A stretch of 64,000 bases of DNA, from the NCBI GenBank assembly GCA_005503065.1, contig SCOE01000024.1, forward strand, positions 1 through 64,000, written 5' to 3'. The DNA is from Comamonadaceae bacterium ALPHA2B. GTDB lineage: Bacteria; Pseudomonadota; Gammaproteobacteria; Burkholderiales; Burkholderiaceae_C. The notes beneath the pieces were generated by a model. It did no database searches. It saw only the letters and a list, made by a program, of their open reading frames with translations, and was not told the origin of the DNA. Made by a program: the position numbers and the translations under genes. The stretch's first letter is position 1. Each line of letters opens with the position of its first letter. Below are positions 2,458 through 12,357 of this stretch, piece after piece.

Positions 2458-2519
2458 AGATGAAAAGCGCCCCCTGGGGGGCAGCGAACCTCGCGCAGCG
2501 GGGAGCGTGGGGGGGTTCA
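2458..2519 (-). repeat. GC-rich interspersed repeat between convergent genes
   Basis: A hairpin GCCCCC-TG-GGGGGC (2469-2482) is followed by an AACCTCGCGCAGCGGGGAGCG stretch and a G7 run ending TTCAA. From memory, elements of this layout are common between genes in Comamonadaceae genomes. It separates the convergent 90-aa gene and the Rieske ferredoxin gene, and its end (2517-2519) supplies the stop codon of the ferredoxin gene. Only one copy occurs in this window, so the repeat status rests on outside knowledge. Confidence 0.4.
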
Positions 2520-2846
2520 ACCACCACTGAGCGCGACGAACACGCGCCCGTCCTCGATGCGGATCGGGTAGGTGCGCAGCGGCTCGGTCACCGGCTCGCA
2601 GGTCGGCTGACCGGTGCGCACGTCGAAGCGGCCCTGGTGCAGCGGGCATTCGATCTCCTCGCCGAGCAGGAAGCCGTCGCACAGCCGCGCGTGGCCGTGG
2701 GTGCAGAGGTTGTCTGTGGCGTAGAACCGGCCGTCGACGCCGAAGACCGCGATCTCGCGGCCCTCGACCTCGAGCGCCACCACGTCGTCGGCGGCCAGCG
2801 CATCGCTGGGGCCGGCATCGGTCCAGGCCATGGAGGTGTCGGTCAT
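2517..2846 (-). CDS. Rieske [2Fe-2S] ferredoxin of an aromatic-ring oxygenase
   Basis: A 109-aa soluble Rieske ferredoxin, the electron carrier that feeds a terminal oxygenase. The cluster ligands are present: C48-T-H50 and C67-P-L-H70, with the usual spacing, and the length is normal for NahAb/NagAb/AndAb-type ferredoxins. It is the last gene of a five-gene minus-strand operon (oxygenase alpha, beta, PchB-like protein, Bug receptor, ferredoxin), 15 bp after the receptor gene. No flavoprotein ferredoxin reductase is encoded in the window, so a reductase must come from elsewhere in the genome. Confidence 0.9.
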   Translation of the reverse strand: MTDTSMAWTDAGPSDALAADDVVALEVEGREIAVFGVDGRFYATDNLCTHGHARLCDGFLLGEEIECPLHQGRFDVRTGQPTCEPVTEPLRTYPIRIEDGRVFVALSGG

Positions 2847-2861
2847 CGTGGGATCCTCGGC

Positions 2862-3821
2862 TCAATCGGGCTTCAGGCCGGCGCGCTCGATCACCGGCCT
2901 CCAGCGTTGCAGCTCGTCGCGCATGAAGTCCGCCAGTGGCTTGGGCGAGCTGCCGACGGGGTCGAAGTAGGCCGTGAGCAGGCGCTGCCTGGTCTCCGGC
3001 TCGGCCAGCACGGCCGCGATCTCGCGGCTCATGCGGTCGACGATGGGCTGCGGCGTGCCCTTGGGCGCCATGTACGCGAACCAGGGCACGGCCTGGATGT
3101 CGGGCAGCCCCGATTCGCGCAGCGTGGGCAGCTCGGGCAGCAGCGCGGACCGCTGCGCCGACGTCACCGCCAGCGCCTTGAGCTTGCCCGCCTTGACCTG
3201 CGGCATCACGGTGACGGGCGGCAGGCAGGCGAACTGCACGTCGCCCTGCACCAGCGCCGTCACAGCCTGCGCCGACGAGGCATAGGGGATGTGCACGGCG
3301 AAGGACTGCGTCTTCGCCTTGATGAGCTCGACGCCCAGGTGCGAGATCGAGCCGTTGCCCGTGGACGCGAAGTTGTATTTGCCCGGGTTGCGCCGCAGGG
3401 CGTCGAGCCAGCCCTTCACCGAGTCGATGCCCAGCTGCGCATTGACCGCGCACACGTTGGGCGTCGTCGCCGCCAGCGACACCGGCACCAGGTCGCGGAA
3501 GGGGTCGTAGGGCAGGTTGCGGTAGAGCACCGTGTTGTAGACCAGGGGCGCGTTGACCGAGAGTAGGAAGGTCTGCCCGTCGGGTGCGGCCTTGGCCACC
3601 AGGTCGGTGCCGGCATTGCCGCCCGCGCCGGCCTTGTTGTCGACGATCAGCGGCTGGCCCAGGCGCTGCGTGAGCCGGTCGTTGACGATCCGCGCCAGGA
3701 TGTCGGGTGACGAGCCGGCAGCGAAAGGCACCACGATGCGCACCGGGCGCTGAGGCCAGTCCTGCGCGTGGACGAGCGCTGCCAGCAGGCCGGCGGCCAG
3801 GACGACGAGGCGCCGCTTCAT
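2862..3821 (-). CDS. Bug-family (TctC-like) periplasmic solute-binding receptor
   Basis: Bug receptors bind carboxylates or aromatic acids in the periplasm and are hugely expanded in Burkholderiales. The 319-aa protein has a signal peptide ending A-L-V-H-A-Q, then the family pattern W-P-Q-R-P-V-R-I-V-V-P-F-A-A-G-S-S-P-D and later D-N-K-A-G-A-G-G-N. I chose ATG 3821, which overlaps the stop of the upstream PchB-like gene (ATGA) and opens directly into the signal peptide. No tctA/tctB membrane genes are nearby, so it is an orphan receptor. Its place inside the operon suggests that it binds the oxygenase substrate or a related acid. Confidence 0.88.
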   Translation of the reverse strand: MKRRLVVLAAGLLAALVHAQDWPQRPVRIVVPFAAGSSPDILARIVNDRLTQRLGQPLIVDNKAGAGGNAGTDLVAKAAPDGQTFLLSVNAPLVYNTVLYRNLPYDPFRDLVPVSLAATTPNVCAVNAQLGIDSVKGWLDALRRNPGKYNFASTGNGSISHLGVELIKAKTQSFAVHIPYASSAQAVTALVQGDVQFACLPPVTVMPQVKAGKLKALAVTSAQRSALLPELPTLRESGLPDIQAVPWFAYMAPKGTPQPIVDRMSREIAAVLAEPETRQRLLTAYFDPVGSSPKPLADFMRDELQRWRPVIERAGLKPD

Positions 3822-4198
3822 GCGTCGGCCTCCGCGACCGGCACCATCTGCGCATGGTCCTGCAGCTCGCGCGCGATGAAGCCGGCCACCATCGCGCGGT
3901 AGCACGCCTCCACCACCTCGGGGTACGCACCCTCCGCCTCCGCCAGGCGCCGCACCTTGTCGAAGACCTGCTGCTGGCGCTGAGGCGCCGACACCTGGAA
4001 GGCGTCGCGCTTGAAGCGGGCCGCGTCGCGCACGTAGCGGCCGCGCTCGGCCAGCAGCTTCACGATCTGCACGTCGAGGGCATCGATGCGCTCGCGCACC
4101 TCGGCCAGTGAATCACACAGCGGCACGTAGGCCGGGTCGACGAAGCGGCGCAGCGCCGGGCGGTGGGGATCGGGTTCCGCTGCCTCTTGTTCGCTCAT
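3818..4198 (-). CDS. AroQ-fold chorismate mutase / isochorismate-pyruvate lyase (PchB)-like protein
   Basis: A 126-aa all-helical AroQ-class protein. By eye it aligns best with PchB, which splits isochorismate into salicylate and pyruvate: E-V-R-E-R-I-D-A-L-D, then L-L-A-E-R-G-R-Y-V, A-A-R-F-K-R-D, A-P-Q-R and a C-terminal F-I-A-R-E-L helix. The basic residues corresponding to PchB Arg14, Arg31 and Lys42 are conserved; the Gln90 position appears to be Glu. Roughly 25 extra residues precede the domain. It overlaps both neighbours by four bases, so it is made with the oxygenase beta subunit and the Bug receptor. Whether it is a mutase, a lyase or a non-catalytic paralogue cannot be told from the sequence. 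Confidence 0.8.
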   Translation of the reverse strand: MSEQEAAEPDPHRPALRRFVDPAYVPLCDSLAEVRERIDALDVQIVKLLAERGRYVRDAARFKRDAFQVSAPQRQQQVFDKVRRLAEAEGAYPEVVEACYRAMVAGFIARELQDHAQMVPVAEADA

Positions 4199-4674
4199 AT
4201 CGGGTAGATGATGGAATTCGGGATCATTTCGCTGTCGTACACCACCAGGCGCGCCGCGAACTTCAGGCCCTGCGGCGTGCGCACCACCTCGTCGATGGTG
4301 CGCCCGACGTTGAACACGGTGGTGAGCTGCGAGAGCTTGGTGCGGAACACCGCATAGTTCGCCTCGCAGTGGATGCGGCCCTCCTCCACCCGCCGCACGA
4401 GCGGCGTGCCCACGACGTGGCGTTGGTAGTAGGGATCGTGGAACAGCGTCTCCCGGATGCCGTAGACGCGGTCGCGCAGCATCGCCCGGCTCTCGAAGGA
4501 CAGCGTGGCCAGAGGAAAGCCGCGCTCGTGGTTCTCGCGCGGCTGCAGGCGGTAGCTGCACACCTCGGTGAAGAACTCGGGCCAGCGGTCCCAATCGCCG
4601 GCGTCGAGCGCGGCGGCGTACTCGGCGTAGAGCTGCGTGAGCCCGAACCATTCCTCCGAATTGAGCAGGGTCAT
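4195..4674 (-). CDS. Aromatic-ring-hydroxylating dioxygenase, beta (small) subunit
   Basis: A 159-aa protein of the ring-hydroxylating beta-subunit fold (NTF2-like cone), which packs against the alpha subunit and has a mainly structural role. The family pattern is visible: an early Y-A-A-A-L-D-A-G-D-W-D-R-W-P-E-F-F-T-E segment, a central R-E-T-L-F-H-D-P-Y-Y-Q-R-H and a C-terminal I-I-Y-P-I. ATG 4674 overlaps the stop of the alpha-subunit gene (ATGA), and its own stop overlaps the PchB-like gene. Subunit pairing with the adjacent alpha gene is clear; the substrate is not. Confidence 0.88.
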   Translation of the reverse strand: MTLLNSEEWFGLTQLYAEYAAALDAGDWDRWPEFFTEVCSYRLQPRENHERGFPLATLSFESRAMLRDRVYGIRETLFHDPYYQRHVVGTPLVRRVEEGRIHCEANYAVFRTKLSQLTTVFNVGRTIDEVVRTPQGLKFAARLVVYDSEMIPNSIIYPI

Positions 4675-5954
4675 GGCCTCTCCATCACCTCGCGCCAGTA
4701 CGCGTACATGCCGCGGATGAGCGTCTCGGTCACCATGTGGTCGGTGTCTTCGACCGTGCGGCCACCCAGCTCGGCCAGCGTGCGGTGCCAGGGCTTGGAC
4801 TCGAAACCCATCTGCGACAGCTCGATCACCTCGCCGTCGTCGGCCGACACGAAGCCCGCCGGCCCGAAGAGGTTGGCCTGGCGCAGGCGGCGCTGCACCA
4901 TCTCCTCGGTGTCGTCCTCGAAGGCGAAGTGCGTCCACTCGAAGAAGAAGGCGCCGTGGCCGTCAGGCTGGATGTGGCGCGTCGACACGCTGTTGACCTG
5001 CTGCTGCAGGATCACGCTGGGAAAGAGCGTGGTCATGACGGCCGTCGGGCCACCCCACCAGGGCTCCGGCACGATGTCGAGGAAGCGCGGATCTTCCAGT
5101 TGCATGCTTTCCTTGAAGCTCGACACCTGCGTGACCTGCGCCGCCTTGCCCTGCGCACCGCGGGTGGAGATCATGGCCGCGTGCCGGTGCCGCTCATCCA
5201 TGACCAGCTGCGACTTGTTGTCGGCCCGCCAGAGGCCGAAGGTGACGAACCAGGTGTGCAGCAGGCCCGGGTGGTACGGGTCCTTGATGTTCTCCTGCAT
5301 CAGCTTCCAGTTGCCGGGAATGCGCTGGCGGTTGTAGCCCAGGATCTTCAGGCGGCGGCCGTCGAACATCCGGTCGAACCAGCGCAGGATGGCCGGCCCC
5401 ATGAAGTCCTCGAGCGACTCCACGCCGTGGTCGAAGCTGGCGAAGACCACGCCGCCACGCACGGCCACCTTCAGCTTGTTGAGGCCGTTGTCCTCGGTCT
5501 TGAAGTCCGCCGGCATGCCGCCGTGCACCTTGCCGTCCTGCTTCACGCCGCGGCGGAAGGGCACGCCCTGCAGGTCGCCCTTGAGCGTGTAGTTCCACTG
5601 GTGATACGGGCAGACGAATTCCTTGCGGTTGCCGTGCCGCTCGCGGCAGAAGGCCATGCCGCGGTGGGCGCAGACGTTCTCGACCACGTGCACGCTGCCG
5701 TCGGCGGCGCGCGTGAGGATGACCGAGCGCTCGCCCACCGCCGTGCGCTTGAAGTCGCCCGGGTTCGGTATCTCGGCCTCGAGGCCGACGTAGCACCAAT
5801 GGCCACGGTAGAAGAAGCGCTCCAGTTCGCGCCGGTGCAGGCCCCCGTCGGTGTAGGCGGCGAAGGGAATGCGACTGCTGCCGCCACCTTCCCAACGCAG
5901 GGGCTGCGCGGGAATGTCGGCCGTCGCGGGGCGTGGGGTCTCCATGGCGTCCAT
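4671..5954 (-). CDS. Rieske non-heme iron oxygenase, alpha (large) subunit
   Basis: The catalytic subunit hydroxylates an aromatic ring using O2 and electrons from the Rieske ferredoxin. Ligands for the Rieske cluster are C95-x-H97 and C115-x-x-H118. The mononuclear iron motif E-x3-D-x2-H-x4-H is intact at E221/D225/H228/H233. The length of 427 aa and the overall sequence resemble salicylate 5-hydroxylase (NagG) and anthranilate dioxygenase (AndAc) large subunits. It is the first gene of the minus-strand operon, divergent from a NahR-like regulator, which also points to a salicylate-like or other benzoate-type substrate. The exact substrate is inference. Confidence 0.9.
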   Translation of the reverse strand: MDAMETPRPATADIPAQPLRWEGGGSSRIPFAAYTDGGLHRRELERFFYRGHWCYVGLEAEIPNPGDFKRTAVGERSVILTRAADGSVHVVENVCAHRGMAFCRERHGNRKEFVCPYHQWNYTLKGDLQGVPFRRGVKQDGKVHGGMPADFKTEDNGLNKLKVAVRGGVVFASFDHGVESLEDFMGPAILRWFDRMFDGRRLKILGYNRQRIPGNWKLMQENIKDPYHPGLLHTWFVTFGLWRADNKSQLVMDERHRHAAMISTRGAQGKAAQVTQVSSFKESMQLEDPRFLDIVPEPWWGGPTAVMTTLFPSVILQQQVNSVSTRHIQPDGHGAFFFEWTHFAFEDDTEEMVQRRLRQANLFGPAGFVSADDGEVIELSQMGFESKPWHRTLAELGGRTVEDTDHMVTETLIRGMYAYWREVMERP

Positions 5955-6062: not shown

Positions 6063-6965
6063 ATGAACCTGCACGAGATCGACCTGAACCTGTTGGTGGT
6101 GCTCAACCAGCTGCTGATCGAGCGGCGCGTGTCGGCGGCCGCGCAGACGCTGGGCCTGAGCCAACCGGCGGTGAGCAACGCCCTCGCCCGCCTGCGCAAG
6201 GCCTTCGGGGACGAGCTGTTCCTGCGCACCTCGCAGGGCATGGTGCCGACCCCGCTGGCGGAACGGCTGGCCGAGCCGGTGGCCAACGCGCTGGGCCTGC
6301 TGCACGGCGCGCTCAACCAGCGCGACGGCTTCGACCCCGCCACCAGCGAGCGCGCCTTCACCGTCGGCATGACGGACATCGGCGAGATCTATTTCCTGCC
6401 TGGGCTCATGGCGGCGCTGCGCGACTCGGCGCCCGGCGTGCGCGTGAGCACGGTGCGCAACACCGCGGTGAACCTCAAGGACGAGATGGAGGCGGGCCAC
6501 GTCGACCTGGCCCTCGGCCTGCTGCCCGACCTGCGCGCCGGCTTCTTCCAGCGGCGCCTGTTCACCCAGCGCTACGTGTGCCTGATGCGCCGCGGGCATG
6601 CGCTGGACAAGCGCCGCATCAGCCTGCGCGAGTTCCAGGCGGCCGAGCACGTGGTGGTGGTCGCAGCGGGCACCGGCCACGGCCAGGTCGACGAACTGCT
6701 TGCGCGCCAGGGCATCCGGCGCGACGTGCGGCTCACGGTGCCGCACTTCGTGGCGGTGGGCCACATCCTGCAGGCCAGCGACATGATCGCCACGGTGCCC
6801 GAGCGTTTCGCCCAGCGCGTGGGCGCGCCTTTCGACCTGGTGAGCGTGCCGCACCCTGCCGCGCTGCCGCCGATCGCCATCAACATGTTCTGGCACGCCC
6901 GCCAGCACCGCACGCCGGCCAGCCAGTGGCTGCGCCAGCTGGTCGCGGGCCTGCACGGGGGCTGA
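6063..6965 (+). CDS. LysR-family regulator, NahR/NagR-like
   Basis: A 300-aa LysR-type transcription factor. The N-terminal winged helix (residues 1-65) reads L-H-E-I-D-L-N-L-L-V-V-L-N-Q-L-L and later L-S-Q-P-A-V-S-N-A-L-A-R-L-R-K, closely following NahR/NagR/DntR, which respond to salicylate-type effectors. The C-terminal two-lobed effector domain fills the rest. The gene is divergent from the Rieske oxygenase operon, the classic arrangement for an activator of that operon. ATG 6063 gives the standard N-terminus. The effector is inferred as a hydroxy- or aminobenzoate-like acid. Confidence 0.9.
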   Translation: MNLHEIDLNLLVVLNQLLIERRVSAAAQTLGLSQPAVSNALARLRKAFGDELFLRTSQGMVPTPLAERLAEPVANALGLLHGALNQRDGFDPATSERAFTVGMTDIGEIYFLPGLMAALRDSAPGVRVSTVRNTAVNLKDEMEAGHVDLALGLLPDLRAGFFQRRLFTQRYVCLMRRGHALDKRRISLREFQAAEHVVVVAAGTGHGQVDELLARQGIRRDVRLTVPHFVAVGHILQASDMIATVPERFAQRVGAPFDLVSVPHPAALPPIAINMFWHARQHRTPASQWLRQLVAGLHGG

Positions 6966-6971
6966 GCCGGC

Positions 6972-7730
6972 TCAGCGCTCGGCCGTCGGCGGCATGCCGA
7001 GCATGCCCGCCAGCACGCGGTGCTTGGAATGCTCGATGTGCGACATCATCTGCGCCAGCGCGCCCTCGCGGTCCCCCGCCGCCAGCGCGCGCAGGAAGGC
7101 CAGGTGCTCGCGCATGGCGGGCACCACCTGCACCGGGCGCATCGAGTCGGCGTCGTAGCGGATCAGCCGCACGTGCAGGCTGTTGACGCGGTAGATCTCC
7201 GACAGGATCTCGTTGCCGATGCTGTCCACCATCAGGTCGTGCAGGCCCCAGTCCACGGCCTGCGCGTCCTTCTCCAGCGCCGCGTCGGGCTGGGGCTGCA
7301 GCGCGCGCTGCAGGATGGCCTCGTGGTCGGCGATGAGGCGCTCCAGCGTCGCCGGCGTCGCCACCTCGGCGAAACGCTGCACGGCCTCGCGCTCGACCAT
7401 CGCACGCACCTGCCAGGCATTGCGGATGAGCTTCATGTCCACCGTCGCGACCTGCAGGCCGCGCTTGGGCACCGCCTTGATGAGCCCGGCCGCCTCCAGC
7501 CGCGGCACCAGTTCGCGCACCGCAGCCAGCGGCATCGCCAGCAACTGCATCAGCTCGCGCTGCGAGACGAACTGGCCCGGGCGGATGCGCGCATCGATGA
7601 TCTGCTGACGAAAGCCCTGGTAGGCGAGGTTGCGCTGAGTGACCGGCTCGACGGCCTGTCCGGCCGCCGGCTCGGCGCGGCCCGGCCGACTGGCGGCGCG
7701 GGCGGTGGCTGTGGGGTTCATGGGGGCCAT
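6972..7730 (-). CDS. GntR-family (FCD/FadR subfamily) regulator
   Basis: A winged-helix GntR domain (F-R-Q-Q-I-I-D-A-R-I-R-P-G-Q then S-Q-R-E-L-M) is followed by an all-helical FCD effector domain with the metal-binding type pattern D-H-E-A-I, H-D-L and H-L-A-F-L-R-A-L. About 40 Ala/Arg-rich residues precede the HTH, so the start is uncertain: ATG 7730 is used here, ATG 7721 is nine bases downstream. It is divergent from the DapA/DhaKL/Liv operon and almost certainly regulates it. Two palindromes in the gap are good operator candidates. FCD regulators usually bind an organic acid or sugar acid, which agrees with the catabolic genes next door. Confidence 0.85.
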   Translation of the reverse strand: MAPMNPTATARAASRPGRAEPAAGQAVEPVTQRNLAYQGFRQQIIDARIRPGQFVSQRELMQLLAMPLAAVRELVPRLEAAGLIKAVPKRGLQVATVDMKLIRNAWQVRAMVEREAVQRFAEVATPATLERLIADHEAILQRALQPQPDAALEKDAQAVDWGLHDLMVDSIGNEILSEIYRVNSLHVRLIRYDADSMRPVQVVPAMREHLAFLRALAAGDREGALAQMMSHIEHSKHRVLAGMLGMPPTAER

Positions 7731-7767
7731 GGTATCGGGGCGGGACGGCAACGCACACGGTGAGTGC

Positions 7768-7783
7768 GTACTAGGGATAGTAC
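7768..7783. promoter_or_regulatory. Candidate GntR operator: GTACTA-N4-TAGTAC
   Basis: A perfect inverted repeat with 6-bp arms and a 4-bp centre lies in the 168-bp gap between the GntR gene and the DapA-family gene. It overlaps the region expected to hold promoters for both genes. Assignment to the neighbouring GntR protein is by position. Confidence 0.4.
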
Positions 7784-7793
7784 TAACATCCGT

Positions 7794-7805
7794 CTGACAT
7801 GTCAG
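7794..7805. promoter_or_regulatory. Perfect 12-bp palindrome CTGACATGTCAG in the same promoter gap
   Basis: A second perfect palindrome starts 10 bp after the first one, 93 bp before the lyase start codon. Two unrelated palindromes so close together suggest either two regulators or a regulator site beside a promoter element. Confidence 0.35.
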
Positions 7806-7898
7806 TGAGCGTATAGTCCGAGCTCAGCGATCGAGACCCCGCCTCCGCGCCCTTCATTCCACCCCACTGCATTCCCGCTTCTCACCGGAACCCACCTC

Positions 7899-8789
7899 AT
7901 GGCCCTCGAACTCAATGGCATCATCCCGCCCCTGGTCACCCCCTTCACCGCCGACGGCGAGATCGACGAGGCGGCCTTCCGCAAGGTCATCCGCTTCAAC
8001 CTGTCCAAGGGCGTGCACGGCGTCTGCCCCGGCGGCAGCACCGGCGAGGGCCACACCTTCACCGCCGAGGAATTCGCGCGGATCATGGAGATCACCGTCG
8101 ACGAGGTGGCCGGCAAGGTGCCGGTCGTCGCCGGAATCATCTCCAACAGCACTCGCGACGCGATCCGCCGTGCCAAATCGGTCGCGCACCTGCCGATCGC
8201 CGGGCTGCAGGTCACGCCCGTGCACTACCTCTTCAAGCCCGACGAGGAAGCGACCTTCAACCACTTCAAGGCGCTGACCGAGGCCGTCGACATCCCGGTC
8301 ATCATCTACAACGTCGTGCCCTGGAACTATCTGAACCCGGCGCAGATGATCCGTCTGATGCAGGAGCTGCCCGGCGTGCAGGGCATCAAGCAGAGCCAGG
8401 GCGACCTCAAGCTCATGGCCGACCTCGTGCTGGGCGTGCCCGAGGGCTGCAAGGTGTTCTCCGCCGTCGACGCGCTCATGTACTCGTCCTTCGCGCTGGG
8501 CGCGCACGGCGCCATCGCCGCCACGCCGGCCGCGCTGCCGGGCGTGTGCGTGGCCCTCTGGAACGCCGTGCAGGCGGGCGACCATGCCAAGGGCCTGGAG
8601 ATCCACCGCGCCATGCTGACCTTCTGGAACGCCGTGGTGGGCGACAACCTGCCGGCCAACCTCAAGACCACCATCGCACTGCAGGGCTGCCCCACCGGCC
8701 TGCCCCGCGCGCCGATGCCCGCGACCAGCGAGGCCCAGACCGCCCGCATCCGCAAGACCCTGGACGCCGTGCTGGCCTTCGAGGCCTGA
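7899..8789 (+). CDS. DapA/NanA-family class I lyase (dihydrodipicolinate synthase superfamily)
   Basis: A (beta/alpha)8 class I aldolase or dehydratase acting on 2-keto acids by a Schiff base. The family residues are in place: G-G-S-T-G-E-G at 45-51, Y137 in I-I-Y-N-V-V-P, and the Schiff-base lysine K164 in G-I-K-Q-S. The 296-aa length is typical. DapA itself is unlikely, because the gene opens a catabolic operon with transporters and kinases. Members in such operons split or dehydrate 2-keto-3-deoxy or 4-hydroxy-2-keto acids, often giving pyruvate. The start at 7899 follows the divergent GntR promoter region. Substrate unknown. Confidence 0.85.
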   Translation: MALELNGIIPPLVTPFTADGEIDEAAFRKVIRFNLSKGVHGVCPGGSTGEGHTFTAEEFARIMEITVDEVAGKVPVVAGIISNSTRDAIRRAKSVAHLPIAGLQVTPVHYLFKPDEEATFNHFKALTEAVDIPVIIYNVVPWNYLNPAQMIRLMQELPGVQGIKQSQGDLKLMADLVLGVPEGCKVFSAVDALMYSSFALGAHGAIAATPAALPGVCVALWNAVQAGDHAKGLEIHRAMLTFWNAVVGDNLPANLKTTIALQGCPTGLPRAPMPATSEAQTARIRKTLDAVLAFEA

Positions 8790-8824
8790 GCGCACGCGCC
8801 ATCCCGACAACGACGGAGACAAGC

Positions 8825-9808
8825 ATGAACATCCAACGACGCAATCTGATGAAGGCCGGCGCGCTGGCCGCCGCCGGCCTCGCCGTGGGGCCGCGCGCCT
8901 TCGCGCAGGGCGGCTTCCCGACCAAGCCGGTGACGCTGATCGTGCCCTTCGCACCCGGCGGCAACACTGACATCGTGGCGCGCAGCGTCGCGGTGTCGCT
9001 GGGCAAGGTGCTCGGCCAGTCGGTGGTCGTGGACAACCGCGCCGGCGCCGGAGGCTCCATCGGCGCATCGCTGGTGGCGCGTGCACAGCCCGACGGGTAC
9101 ACGCTGCTGCTGTGCGGCGCAGGCGTGATCGTCACGGTGCCCGAGATCGTCAAGACCCAGTACACGCGCGCGAACTTCGCGCCCATCGGCCTGGTCAACA
9201 AGAGCTCGATGGTGATCCTGGCGCGCAAGAACGACGCCCGGTTCAAGAACTTCCAGGACTTCGCCACCTACGCCCGCACCGCCGAGGGCAAGGTCATGGC
9301 CGCGCACTCGGGCCCCGGCACGCCCAACCAGCTGGCGCTCATCCAGCTCGAGAACCTGCTCAAGGCCCGCTTCACCAGCGTCAGCTACAAGGGCTCGGCA
9401 CCGGCGCTGGTCGACCTGATGGGCGGCCAGGTGGACGTGCATTTCGACCAGGTGACGAGCTCGCTGCCGTACATCAAGTCCGGCCAGCTCGAGCCGCTCG
9501 CCGTGCTCGGCCCGGCGCAGGACCCGTCGCTGCCCGGCGTGAAGACCGTGGCCGAGCTGGGCTTCGGCAGCCTCGACGGCACCACCTATGTCGGCGTGCT
9601 CGGCCCGGCCGGCATGCCCAAGGACCTGCAGGACAAGCTGGCCGCCTCGCTGGCGCAGGCCGTGAAGGACCCGTACACGGTACAGAACGCCCGCGAGCTG
9701 GGCAGCGTCGCCGTCAGCAGCACGCCGCAGGAATTCGCCCGCATCCTCGACACCGAGTACGCGCTGGCCAGCCAGTCCGTCAAGGACGGCCGGCTGAAGG
9801 CCGACTGA
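8825..9808 (+). CDS. Bug-family (TctC-like) periplasmic receptor with Tat-like signal
   Basis: A 327-aa Bug receptor. The N-terminus, R-R-N-L-M-K then an Ala-rich stretch ending A-F-A-Q-G, looks like a Tat-type signal peptide. The mature protein starts with the family pattern F-P-T-K-P-V-T-L-I-V-P-F-A-P-G-G and has D-N-R-A-G-A-G-G-S near residue 75. It sits 35 bp after the lyase gene and 23 bp before the kinase gene in the same operon. No TctA/TctB partner is encoded here, although a complete Liv-type ABC importer follows. It may sense or bind the same compound, or work with a membrane component elsewhere. Confidence 0.88.
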   Translation: MNIQRRNLMKAGALAAAGLAVGPRAFAQGGFPTKPVTLIVPFAPGGNTDIVARSVAVSLGKVLGQSVVVDNRAGAGGSIGASLVARAQPDGYTLLLCGAGVIVTVPEIVKTQYTRANFAPIGLVNKSSMVILARKNDARFKNFQDFATYARTAEGKVMAAHSGPGTPNQLALIQLENLLKARFTSVSYKGSAPALVDLMGGQVDVHFDQVTSSLPYIKSGQLEPLAVLGPAQDPSLPGVKTVAELGFGSLDGTTYVGVLGPAGMPKDLQDKLAASLAQAVKDPYTVQNARELGSVAVSSTPQEFARILDTEYALASQSVKDGRLKAD

Positions 9809-9831
9809 CCCACCGCCCCGGACACCGCAAC

Positions 9832-10830
9832 GTGAAGAAGATCCTCAACGACCCGAAGGCTTACGTCGACGAGATGCTCGACGGCCTGGTGCTGTGCCAT
9901 CCCGAACTCGCCCGTGCCGGCGACGGCGGCCGCGTCATCGTGCGCAGCCGCGGCCCGGTTGAGGGCAAGGTGGGCATCGTGACCGGCGGCGGCTCGGGGC
10001 ACCTGCCGGTGTTCCTCGGCTACGTCGGCGACGGCCTGCTCGACAGCTGCGCCGTGGGCAACGTGTTCGCCGGCCCGCGCATGGACGACTGCATGACCGC
10101 CGCGCGCGCGGCCGACGGCGGGGCCGGCGTGCTGCAGCTGTACGGCAACTACGGCGGCGACCGCATGAACTTCGACATGGCGGCCGAGATGCTGGAGATG
10201 GAAGGGCTGCAGGTCGCTTCCGTGCGGGTGGCGGACGACGTGGCCAGCGCGCCGGCCGACCAGCGGGAGAAGCGCCGCGGCGTGGCCGGCCTGGTCTTCG
10301 TCTACAAGGCAGCCGGCGCCAAGGCCGCCGCCGGGGCTTCGCTCGAGGAGGTGACGGCCCTGGCGCGCAAGGCCAACGACGCCGTCCGCTCCATCGGCGT
10401 GGCCCTCACGCCCTGCGTGGTGCCCGAATCGGGCAAGGCCTCCTTCGAGATCGCCGACACCGAGGTCGAGTTCGGCATGGGCATTCACGGCGAGCCGGGC
10501 ATCTGGCGCGGGCCGCTCAAGAGCGCCGACGCGCTGGTCGACGAGATGCTCGCCCATGTGCTGCCCGAATTGCAGCTGGCACGCGGCGACCGCATCGCCT
10601 TGCTGGTCAACAGCCTGGGCGCCACGCCGCTGGAAGAGTTGTACATCCTCTACCGACGCGCGCGGCAGGTGCTTGACGAGCGCGGCATCGCCATCACCCA
10701 TCCGCTGGTGGGCCGCTACGCCACCTCCATGGAGATGGCCGGTGCGTCGCTCAGCGTGATGAAGCTGGACGACGAACTGGCGCAGCTGCTGGCCGCACCG
10801 GCCGACTGCCCCTTCTGGAGCGTGCGCTGA
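9832..10830 (+). CDS. DhaK-family dihydroxyacetone/ketose kinase subunit
   Basis: A 332-aa DhaK-type subunit, which binds a short ketose through a hemiaminal to histidine. The substrate motif G-M-G-I-H-G-E-P-G carries that histidine at H219, and G-G-G-S-G-H is present near residue 52. The start is GTG 9832, 23 bp after the receptor gene. The stop overlaps the start of the DhaL partner. The usual phosphoryl donor DhaM (PTS) is not encoded in the window. The real substrate may be dihydroxyacetone or a related C3/C4 compound released by the upstream lyase; this is inference. Confidence 0.85.
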   Translation: MKKILNDPKAYVDEMLDGLVLCHPELARAGDGGRVIVRSRGPVEGKVGIVTGGGSGHLPVFLGYVGDGLLDSCAVGNVFAGPRMDDCMTAARAADGGAGVLQLYGNYGGDRMNFDMAAEMLEMEGLQVASVRVADDVASAPADQREKRRGVAGLVFVYKAAGAKAAAGASLEEVTALARKANDAVRSIGVALTPCVVPESGKASFEIADTEVEFGMGIHGEPGIWRGPLKSADALVDEMLAHVLPELQLARGDRIALLVNSLGATPLEELYILYRRARQVLDERGIAITHPLVGRYATSMEMAGASLSVMKLDDELAQLLAAPADCPFWSVR

Positions 10831-11429
10831 TGCTCGACGCGCAGACCCTCGCCGCCGCGCTGCCGAAGTGGTGCGCCGGCGTGCACCACGCGGCGCCCGA
10901 GCTCAACGAGCTCGACGGCCGCCTGGGCGATGCCGACCTGGGCGCCACGCTCGACAAGTGCGCCACGCTGGTCGAGCAGGCCCTGCCCGAGATGGCCGGC
11001 GCGCCGCTGGACGCCATGCTGCGACGCTGCGCGCAGGCCTGCGCCAAGGCCTCGGGCTCGAGCTTCGGCACCTTGCTCACGGTGGCGCTGATGACCGCCG
11101 CCAAGCGATGCGCCGGCACCGACGCGCTGGACCGGCCCGCCCTGGCGGCCCTGCTCGGCGAGATCGGTGACACGCTGGCCGCCCGCGGCGGTGCGAGCCT
11201 GGGCGACAAGACCGTGCTCGACAGCCTGCACGCCGTGCGCCAGGCCCTGGCCGAAGCGCCGGACGGCATGCCCCTGCGCCCCGTGGCGTGCGACGCGGCG
11301 CGCGCCGCGCTCGACAGCTTCCGCGACCGCCCCAACCGGATCGGGCGCGCACGCATGTTCGCCGACAAGACCATCGGCATGGACGACCCCGGCATGGTCG
11401 CACTGCTGCGCATGGCCGAGAGCCTCTAG
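10830..11429 (+). CDS. DhaL-family nucleotide-binding kinase subunit
   Basis: A 199-aa all-helical DhaL domain, which holds the adenine nucleotide and passes phosphate to the ketose on DhaK. The Mg-binding signature L-D-G-R-L-G-D-A-D-L-G near residues 28-38 keeps the expected aspartates (canonical G-D-G-D-H-G), and S-G-S-S-F-G-T is the nucleotide-loop region. ATG 10830 shares its first base with the preceding stop codon, so the two subunits are coupled. Without a DhaM partner nearby, the pair may use ATP directly, as in the single-chain kinases. Confidence 0.85.
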   Translation: MLDAQTLAAALPKWCAGVHHAAPELNELDGRLGDADLGATLDKCATLVEQALPEMAGAPLDAMLRRCAQACAKASGSSFGTLLTVALMTAAKRCAGTDALDRPALAALLGEIGDTLAARGGASLGDKTVLDSLHAVRQALAEAPDGMPLRPVACDAARAALDSFRDRPNRIGRARMFADKTIGMDDPGMVALLRMAESL

Positions 11430-11441
11430 ACCTGCCAACGA

Positions 11442-11461
11442 CGCCCCTCGCAGAAGGGGCG
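11442..11461 (+). promoter_or_regulatory. Intercistronic hairpin between dhaL-like and livH-like genes
   Basis: CGCCCCT and AGGGGCG arms (7 bp) with a 6-nt loop lie in the 55-bp gap between the kinase and transporter genes. No T-tract follows, so it is not a standard terminator. It could stabilise the upstream message or balance expression between the two halves of the operon. Confidence 0.3.
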
Positions 11462-11484
11462 GTTCACGAACCGGAGACAACGCA

Positions 11485-12357
11485 ATGCTGGGACAAGTGA
11501 TCATCAGCGGCCTGGCCATGGGCTGCATCTACGCGCTCATCGCGCTGGGCTATGCCTACGTGTGGAACACGATGGCCATCGTGAACTTCGCGGCGGGCGA
11601 ATTCCTCACCTTCGCCGCCTTCGTGTTCGTGGCCACCTTCACGACCAGCCTGAACCTGCCCTTCTGGCTCGCGGCGCTGAGCACGGCCGCGGCCATGGCG
11701 CTCATGGGCGCCCTGTTCTCGGTGCTGGTGTTCGCACGGCTGCAGCGGCAGAAGGCGCTGGTGGCCATCATCGCCACCGTCGGCTTCGGCATCTTCCTCA
11801 AGGAGATGGCCCGCATCATCTACGGCCCGGAGCCGCTGCTGTACCTCAGCCCCTTCGGCGACGGCGTGCTGGACTTCGGCGCATTCCGCATCCCGGTGCA
11901 GCAGTTGGTCATCATGGCCATCGTGCTGGTCATCATGGTGCTGCAGTACCTGGCGCTGCGCTACACCACGGTCGGCAAGATGATGCGCGCCACCGCGCTG
12001 GACCGCGAGACCGCACGCCTCATGGGCATCCCGGTCAACCGGGTGCTCGCCGGCACCTTCGCCTTCTCGTCCGTGCTGGCGGCGCTGGCCGGCATCCTGC
12101 TCGCGCCGCTGTTCTACGTCACGACGGAGATGGGCACGCTGGTGGGCCTGAAGGGCTTCGTGGCCATGATCATCGGCGGCTTCGGCAGCGTGCCCGGGGC
12201 GATCCTGGGCGGCGTGCTGCTGGGCATCGCCGAGAACGTGGGGGCCTTCACCATCTCGTCCACCTACAAGGACGCCCTGGCCTTCGTGCTGCTGCTGGTC
12301 TTCCTGCTGGTGCGGCCGCAGGGCCTGCTGCCCGAACGCCATGCCGACCGCGCCTGA
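11485..12357 (+). CDS. Branched-chain amino acid-type ABC transporter permease (LivH-like)
   Basis: A 290-aa inner-membrane permease of the LivH family. The N-terminus G-L-A-M-G-C-I-Y-A-L-I-A-L-G-Y and the early N-F-A-A-G-E-F motif are hallmarks, and about eight hydrophobic segments are visible. ATG 11485 has GGAGA just upstream. It begins the transporter half of the operon: LivH, a LivM-LivG fusion, a LivK receptor and LivF, all on the plus strand with short gaps. Liv-type importers often carry non-amino-acid substrates, and the flanking lyase, kinase and flavoprotein suggest an organic acid here. Confidence 0.88.
   Translation: MLGQVIISGLAMGCIYALIALGYAYVWNTMAIVNFAAGEFLTFAAFVFVATFTTSLNLPFWLAALSTAAAMALMGALFSVLVFARLQRQKALVAIIATVGFGIFLKEMARIIYGPEPLLYLSPFGDGVLDFGAFRIPVQQLVIMAIVLVIMVLQYLALRYTTVGKMMRATALDRETARLMGIPVNRVLAGTFAFSSVLAALAGILLAPLFYVTTEMGTLVGLKGFVAMIIGGFGSVPGAILGGVLLGIAENVGAFTISSTYKDALAFVLLLVFLLVRPQGLLPERHADRA

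Follow-up and report, generated by a model that had tools for sequence, protein, structure and literature searches.

Gene organization of the locus

The window, that is, the whole 64-kb stretch of DNA analysed here, carries on its minus strand an oxygenase operon with two additional genes in its middle. The gene for the alpha subunit of a NagG-type salicylate 5-hydroxylase (4671..5954, minus strand; Pfam Rieske and Ring_hydroxyl_A) is followed, on the same strand, by those for a NagH-type beta subunit (4195..4674), a PchB-like protein of 126 amino acids with the AroQ fold (3818..4198; Pfam CM_2), a Bug/TctC-type periplasmic solute-binding protein (2862..3821) and a NagAb-like Rieske-type ferredoxin (2517..2846). 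The reading frames in the window show the same 4-base ATGA at the alpha/beta, beta/AroQ and AroQ/Bug junctions. They agree with the sequence-only reading, whose interval of 3818-4674 corresponds to the AroQ and beta genes, and which had the AroQ gene overlapping the beta and bug genes by four bases each.

A divergent gene for a LysR-type regulator (6063..6965, plus strand; Pfam HTH_1 and LysR_substrate) begins 108 bases away from alpha as its direct neighbour, and its best NCBIfam model was BsrA, at 241.6 bits and under the cut-off of 480. The adjacent region, 6972-12357, holds a neighbouring cluster in which a GntR-type regulator, a dihydrodipicolinate-synthase-type enzyme, another Bug protein, dihydroxyacetone-kinase-like proteins and a branched-chain ABC permease were recognized by eye.

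The oxygenase and the gentisate genes

We compared the oxygenase subunits with proteins of solved structure. The alpha subunit matched the large subunit of salicylate 5-hydroxylase (PDB 7c8z_A) with 758 bits, the next chain, a terephthalate dioxygenase, reaching 303 bits, and the beta subunit matched 7c8z_B with 204.6 bits, the next best match reaching 81.8 bits. With NagG and NagH of PDB 7C8Z far ahead of the other solved relatives, the oxygenase is assigned by these scores as a NagGH-type salicylate 5-hydroxylase, as its earlier description as salicylate-hydroxylase-like had anticipated. Alignment to NagG also located the Rieske CxH/CxxH ligands in alpha, and showed that Met257 and Arg323 of NagG, residues whose roles are discussed in the available text of PMC9060491, are kept at a presumed numbering offset of 19. 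The best NCBIfam model for alpha was the anthranilate dioxygenase AndAc; this identity was rejected, since the score of 358 bits fell under the cut-off of 750 and NagG was far closer. The ferredoxin matched the naphthalene dioxygenase ferredoxin (PDB 2qpz) with 125 bits and the NCBIfam model AndAb with 118 bits, under the cut-off of 150.

Because of the margins of the 7c8z_A and 7c8z_B matches and the conservation of Met257 and Arg323, we read the operon as nagG-nagH-[aroQ-bug]-nagAb. It resembles the nagAaGHAb(IKL) operon of Ralstonia, as described in the available text of PMC4916378, in the type and order of the alpha, beta and Rieske ferredoxin genes and in having a LysR regulator. In contrast to that operon, nagH and the ferredoxin gene are separated by aroQ-bug, and no reductase gene (nagAa) was found directly upstream of the window alpha, which is a feature of the operon layout and not of the oxygenase itself. 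The gentisate genes of the window's genome also sit apart, on another contig, C33, where a gentisate 1,2-dioxygenase gene (568.6 bits, cut-off 442.1) is followed by a fumarylacetoacetate-hydrolase-family gene (155.9 bits, under the cut-off of 201) and has beside it a maleylacetoacetate-isomerase-type gene (253.2 bits, cut-off 171).

The AroQ protein resembles PchB with its own active-site residues

The window AroQ scored 68.3 bits against Pfam CM_2 (cut-off 27), and we regard it as a genuine member of this family; by eye, it has no apparent signal peptide. PchB was its closest solved structure by sequence, and both structure-search programs ranked PchB first among the fold matches to the AroQ structure model (Z 11.7, rmsd 2.0 over 94 residues), so that the salicylate theme that had been proposed on account of PchB stands. 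Since the E. coli chorismate mutase followed at Z 10.2, near the value for PchB, and helical bundles need care according to the tool's own warning, the fold search on the model cannot tell a lyase from a mutase. The NCBIfam isochorismate lyase model gave 71.5 bits, under its cut-off of 126.

We then aligned 57 AroQ rows, with positions given in the numbering of the PchB paper. The rows of the type found in the window, hereafter the Gln55 type, number 29, of which 16 are linked to the oxygenase genes (including the window and one strain present twice) and 13 are unlinked. Arg15, Arg32, Lys43 and Arg54 were kept in all 29 rows, as was Ala51, while Ile88 was present in 28, the latter two as in PchB. 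At position 55, where PchB has Val, all 29 have Gln, and at position 91, where PchB has Gln, 28 rows including the window have Glu. Glu at position 55 occurs in 81% of AroQ proteins and is the mutase consensus, according to the available text of PMC12329711. The other groups have Ile or Val at this position in the 18 rows of the trp set (17 trp-type copies and L073), and Val in the four plasmid rows and the four rows of other lone AroQ genes. Furthermore, the Gln55-type proteins begin with an N-terminal arm (EP..RRF.DP.Y.P in the window), in which Glu-Pro is found in 29 of 29 and Arg-Arg-Phe/Tyr in 28 of 29 rows. The arm was not seen in the other AroQ groups, and together with Gln55 it is private to this type among the 57 rows. 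In the structure model, the arm (residues 11-30) has a pLDDT of 93-94 and is barely covered by the structure matches. The protein is thus like PchB in its fold and in the six residues named above, and unlike it in having Gln for Val55, Glu for Gln91 and the arm, as well as in its setting, which is catabolic and not that of a siderophore, in a genome that yielded no isochorismate synthase.

The same genome encodes a second CM_2 protein, a 377-aa frame on contig C55, which is taken for a PheA-type protein by its length. Its CM_2 match is stronger than that of the operon AroQ. We rejected the notion of the latter as the strain's sole mutase-family protein, and the earlier concern that the strain's only housekeeping mutase might lie in the operon by chance is removed. 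This second protein aligns with Val at position 55, so that the residue at this position does not exclude mutase activity, and we discarded the missing Glu55 as proof against it. In pairwise comparisons, dN/dS was 0.13-0.40 for AroQ (nine comparisons) and 0.07-0.43 for beta (eight), so that purifying selection acts on AroQ about as it does on beta.

The bug gene is the steady partner of aroQ

Bug matched Pfam TctC with 224 bits and, by eye, has a signal-like N-terminus. Its best PDB match was the terephthalate-binding protein 8hka (217 bits), with other Bug-type chains close behind. While this makes it a member of the Bug/TctC solute-binding proteins, what sets it apart from them is an aroQ gene upstream whose end its own gene overlaps by 4 bases. 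All 15 linked genomes, the window included, have a start codon for Bug (ATG, GTG or TTG) at -4, and so do 11 of the 12 unlinked pairs; L055, the exception, has an ATG at -1. The beta-AroQ spacing, in contrast, varies from -4 to +15. Because the -4 start is kept, the spacing to beta varies and aroQ-bug pairs exist apart from the oxygenase, the steady partner of AroQ is Bug and not the oxygenase. Translational coupling as first proposed is thus conserved at the AroQ-Bug junction, but not at the beta-AroQ junction. In one linked locus, L046, an internal stretch of Bug is missing and its frame is cut short, and the adjoining AroQ frame is intact.

Distribution of the aroQ-bug pair

Among the 399 genomes of the family that were sampled, 156 gave an alpha match at E <= 1e-60. 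We defined 99 close alpha places, with at least 69% identity over nearly the full length; seven partial alpha matches of 77-88% (G105, G138, G199, G239, G324, G325 and G369) lie outside this set. An AroQ of at least 73% identity adjoins alpha in 9 of the 99 places. We examined 80 of the other 90, leaving out the 10 lowest-scoring ones (69-77% identical). Alpha is present in all 80, together with beta or a part of it, and AroQ was seen in none of them, 79 being informative as the contig of L177 ends inside beta. The ferredoxin gene directly follows beta in 64 of the 80, and the sequence of L183 extends for 603 bases after beta. AroQ is thus not a standard part of the NagGH operon. The sequence-only reading had named the absence of AroQ from most such operons as its own refuting test, and its alpha-beta-AroQ-Bug-ferredoxin order, with AroQ at 9 of 99 places, does not stand as a conserved operon.

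Where the pair is present, the layout is uniform. The order alpha-beta-AroQ-Bug, with a divergent LysR relative upstream of alpha, either directly or about 1.1 kb off, was found in 15 of 15 loci (L033-L047), and the ferredoxin gene follows Bug in 14 of them. L033 and L034 represent one strain; counted with the window, the linked genomes number 15, and they include Xenophilus, Variovorax and Hydrogenophaga. The insertion site is identical in all 14 linked loci that have the ferredoxin gene. The beta-to-ferredoxin distance was taken as the stretch between the two matches, with the stop codon included. It was 9, 15 and 34 nt in the cassette-less L139, L134 and L130. Of the operons with the cassette, L045, L044 and L039 have 1354-1371 nt, and L046, with its shortened Bug, has 977 nt. 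L134/L046 and L130/L044/L045 are same-genus sets that span both states, and the operons with and without the pair differ exactly between the beta and ferredoxin genes. In the same-genus operon L118 (alpha 88% identical), beta is followed by neither aroQ-bug nor a ferredoxin gene.

The aroQ-bug pair also occurs without the oxygenase, at 12 loci (L048-L056, L058, L059 and L061). Outside the family, 2 of 368 other genomes at the class level gave a match at E 1e-18. In addition, 101 plasmid records, 67 of them from Klebsiella, encode PchB-like AroQ proteins. A mobile plasmid AroQ was rejected as the source of the cassette, since all of these share less than 60% identity and the AroQ is a lone gene, with no Rieske or Bug neighbours, in the four plasmid loci examined (L083-L086).

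In a tree of 56 AroQ proteins, with L033 left out, the 28 linked and unlinked copies group in one clade (100/98), and the 17 copies of the trp type in a separate one (100/100). The majority of the unlinked pairs fall within the linked ones; since this nesting has mixed support, the tree is compatible with either arrangement having come first. On a tree of 94 alpha rows, which omits L033, its strain being represented by L034, and L041, whose alpha is in two pieces, the presence of AroQ requires seven changes, at least five of them forced by well-supported branches. Judged from this tree, the history of aroQ-bug is one of repeated gain, loss or transfer.

TrpE-like genes beside AroQ relatives

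The trp-type AroQ genes (L065-L072 and L074-L082) have a TrpE-family gene immediately before them in 16 of 17 loci, the TrpE naming having been checked for one, and a gene read as trpG comes next in eight. TrpE and AroQ both act on chorismate. These trpE-adjacent proteins, from the same bacterial family, share 42-53% identity with the window AroQ in local alignments, and differ from it in forming a separate clade, in having Asp51 and Ile/Val55, and in lacking the N-terminal arm and an adjoining Bug.

Of the 12 unlinked pairs, four (L051, L053, L054 and L058) also have a TrpE-like chorismate-binding gene after Bug; the contig of L056 ends inside Bug, so that the following gene is not visible there. 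At L073, AroQ, a TrpE-like gene and Bug are present in another order. The TrpE-like proteins beside aroQ-bug at these five loci are long, and L059 has a short remnant of a TrpE-like gene after Bug. A TrpE-like gene next to aroQ-bug is the pairing expected of a synthase plus a lyase. However, the L073 protein differs at positions common to three aligned TrpE and PabB structures, which we take to be catalytic positions, and because of these alterations it may not make isochorismate. Neither the 64-kb window nor the loci L033-L047 contain a TrpE-like gene.

Co-occurrence with NagG-like oxygenases and the possible source of the substrate

All 13 genomes with an unlinked Gln55-type AroQ (12 with Bug, and L057 without) contain a NagG-like alpha, against 123 of the 390 genomes that lack the linked form (Fisher p 2e-7). 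This comparison was framed post hoc on data already seen, and shared descent inflates it; as most unlinked pairs nest inside linked ones, the co-occurrence may partly reflect common descent. The trp-type AroQ served as a control: of the 16 genomes that carry it outside the linked set, 6 have a NagG-like alpha (p 0.39). For the other lone AroQ genes, this holds for 2 of 4 genomes. In 7 of the 13 unlinked genomes (L204-L210), the alpha is of a second, more distant type with 58-62% identity to the window alpha, encoded in a two-gene alpha-beta unit without ferredoxin; the one of the seven that was checked still has NagG as its best match, at 601 bits, the runner-up reaching 277. Four of these seven units are immediately preceded by another Bug gene, with a LysR-like gene before it by eye.

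No isochorismate synthase above the cut-off was found in the window's genome; since the same scan also detected no PabB, it may miss some chorismate-binding enzymes. The one such enzyme found, read as TrpE, reached 164.3 bits, under the cut-off of 224.75, with the isochorismate synthase model, and just one was likewise found in 7 of the 9 linked genomes of the family sample, including that of the window. Because no synthase was detected, an internal route from isochorismate to gentisate appears unlikely in this genome, so that an imported substrate, gathered by the coupled Bug, would fit all of the parts. The earlier idea of an isochorismate-type substrate coupled to ring hydroxylation thus keeps its salicylate theme, but loses the likelihood of an internal supply.

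Discussion

The best explanation that we can offer, put forward tentatively and with more doubt than confidence, is a salicylate 5-hydroxylase operon with an aroQ-bug cassette that would feed an imported isochorismate-like acid into salicylate breakdown. The anatomy of the locus, the cassette-less state, the separate aroQ-bug pairs and the intact AroQ residues are its observed basis, from which we infer the substrate, the reaction and the import. Bug would capture an extracellular dicarboxylic enolpyruvyl ring acid, for example isochorismate or a near relative, and the cytoplasmic, PchB-like AroQ would split it into salicylate and pyruvate. NagGH would then hydroxylate salicylate to gentisate, and the gentisate genes on contig C33 would complete the breakdown. 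The substrate would have to come from outside the cell, since the scan of the genome turned up no isochorismate synthase. A more specific form, in which Bug takes up isochorismate or a plant or microbial conjugate, the Gln55-type AroQ acts as a lyase to free salicylate, and the hydroxylase forms gentisate, seems to us quite unlikely. What speaks against the best explanation is that Gln55 and Glu91 are unlike PchB, that the isochorismate lyase model stayed under its cut-off, that 90 of the 99 NagGH places are cassette-less, and that an external supply of free isochorismate would be needed.

AroQ might instead be an ordinary, divergent chorismate mutase, the pair having settled in a gene-tolerant site with no role in salicylate metabolism. 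Its membership in the chorismate mutase type II family would agree with this, as would the related clade directly after a TrpE-family gene, which is a plausible site for a mutase, and the coming and going of the pair on the alpha tree with its seven changes. The absence of the consensus Glu55 from all 29 Gln55-type rows speaks against a mutase, but weakly, since the genome's other CM_2 protein, with Val55, lacks it as well. The shared insertion site in all 14 ferredoxin-bearing linked loci, the co-occurrence of Gln55-type AroQ with NagG-like oxygenases even when unlinked, and the other CM_2 protein already present in the genome also count against a chance settler, and we consider this explanation rather unlikely. 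The privacy of Gln55 and the N-terminal arm among the 57 rows could also mean that AroQ acts, as lyase or mutase, on some other enolpyruvyl acid, with Gln55 reading a different ring substituent; an example would be the amino analogue of isochorismate formed en route to anthranilate. The adjacency of AroQ relatives to TrpE-like genes and the AndAc match of alpha (358 bits, cut-off 750) point in the same direction, but among solved oxygenases NagG is by far the nearest to the window alpha, and the L073 TrpE-like protein, altered at the positions shared by TrpE and PabB, may not make the amino analogue, which leaves this a doubtful alternative.

Bug proteins are often encoded in catabolic operons, and the closest solved relative of the window Bug, by a small score margin, binds the aromatic acid terephthalate. 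Both points would suit a scheme in which Bug is the useful part, serving the uptake of salicylate or gentisate, and AroQ is carried along by translational coupling. The purifying selection on AroQ, much like that on beta, argues against such a passenger, and L046, with AroQ intact and Bug cut short, is the opposite of what the scheme predicts, so that we hold it to be improbable.

The salicylate 5-hydroxylase operon is known, and the aroQ-bug insertion is new. In the literature searched, which omits most subscription journals, no paper was found with 'chorismate mutase' and 'nagG' together; those pairing 'chorismate mutase' with 'tripartite tricarboxylate' concern other subjects, judging by their titles and the starts of their abstracts, and the word chorismate is absent from the main text of the nag-cluster papers PMC4916378 and PMC13215587. 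According to the available text of these two papers, NagGH-type salicylate breakdown affects plant-bacterium interactions in Ralstonia (PMC4916378) and in Massilia (PMC13215587).

Salicylate is a plant hormone, and the operon looks built for its degradation. If the best explanation is true, the coupled lyase and receptor would let some bacteria draw on the pathway upstream of free salicylate. We know of no earlier catabolic, as opposed to biosynthetic, use of an isochorismate-pyruvate lyase, and such a precursor-harvesting route would then be, to our knowledge, the first in which this enzyme serves breakdown and not synthesis. Even if the chemistry is different, the aroQ-bug pair is a defined, testable unit, and an AroQ subfamily with a private active-site residue would be useful for studying the differences between mutase and lyase.
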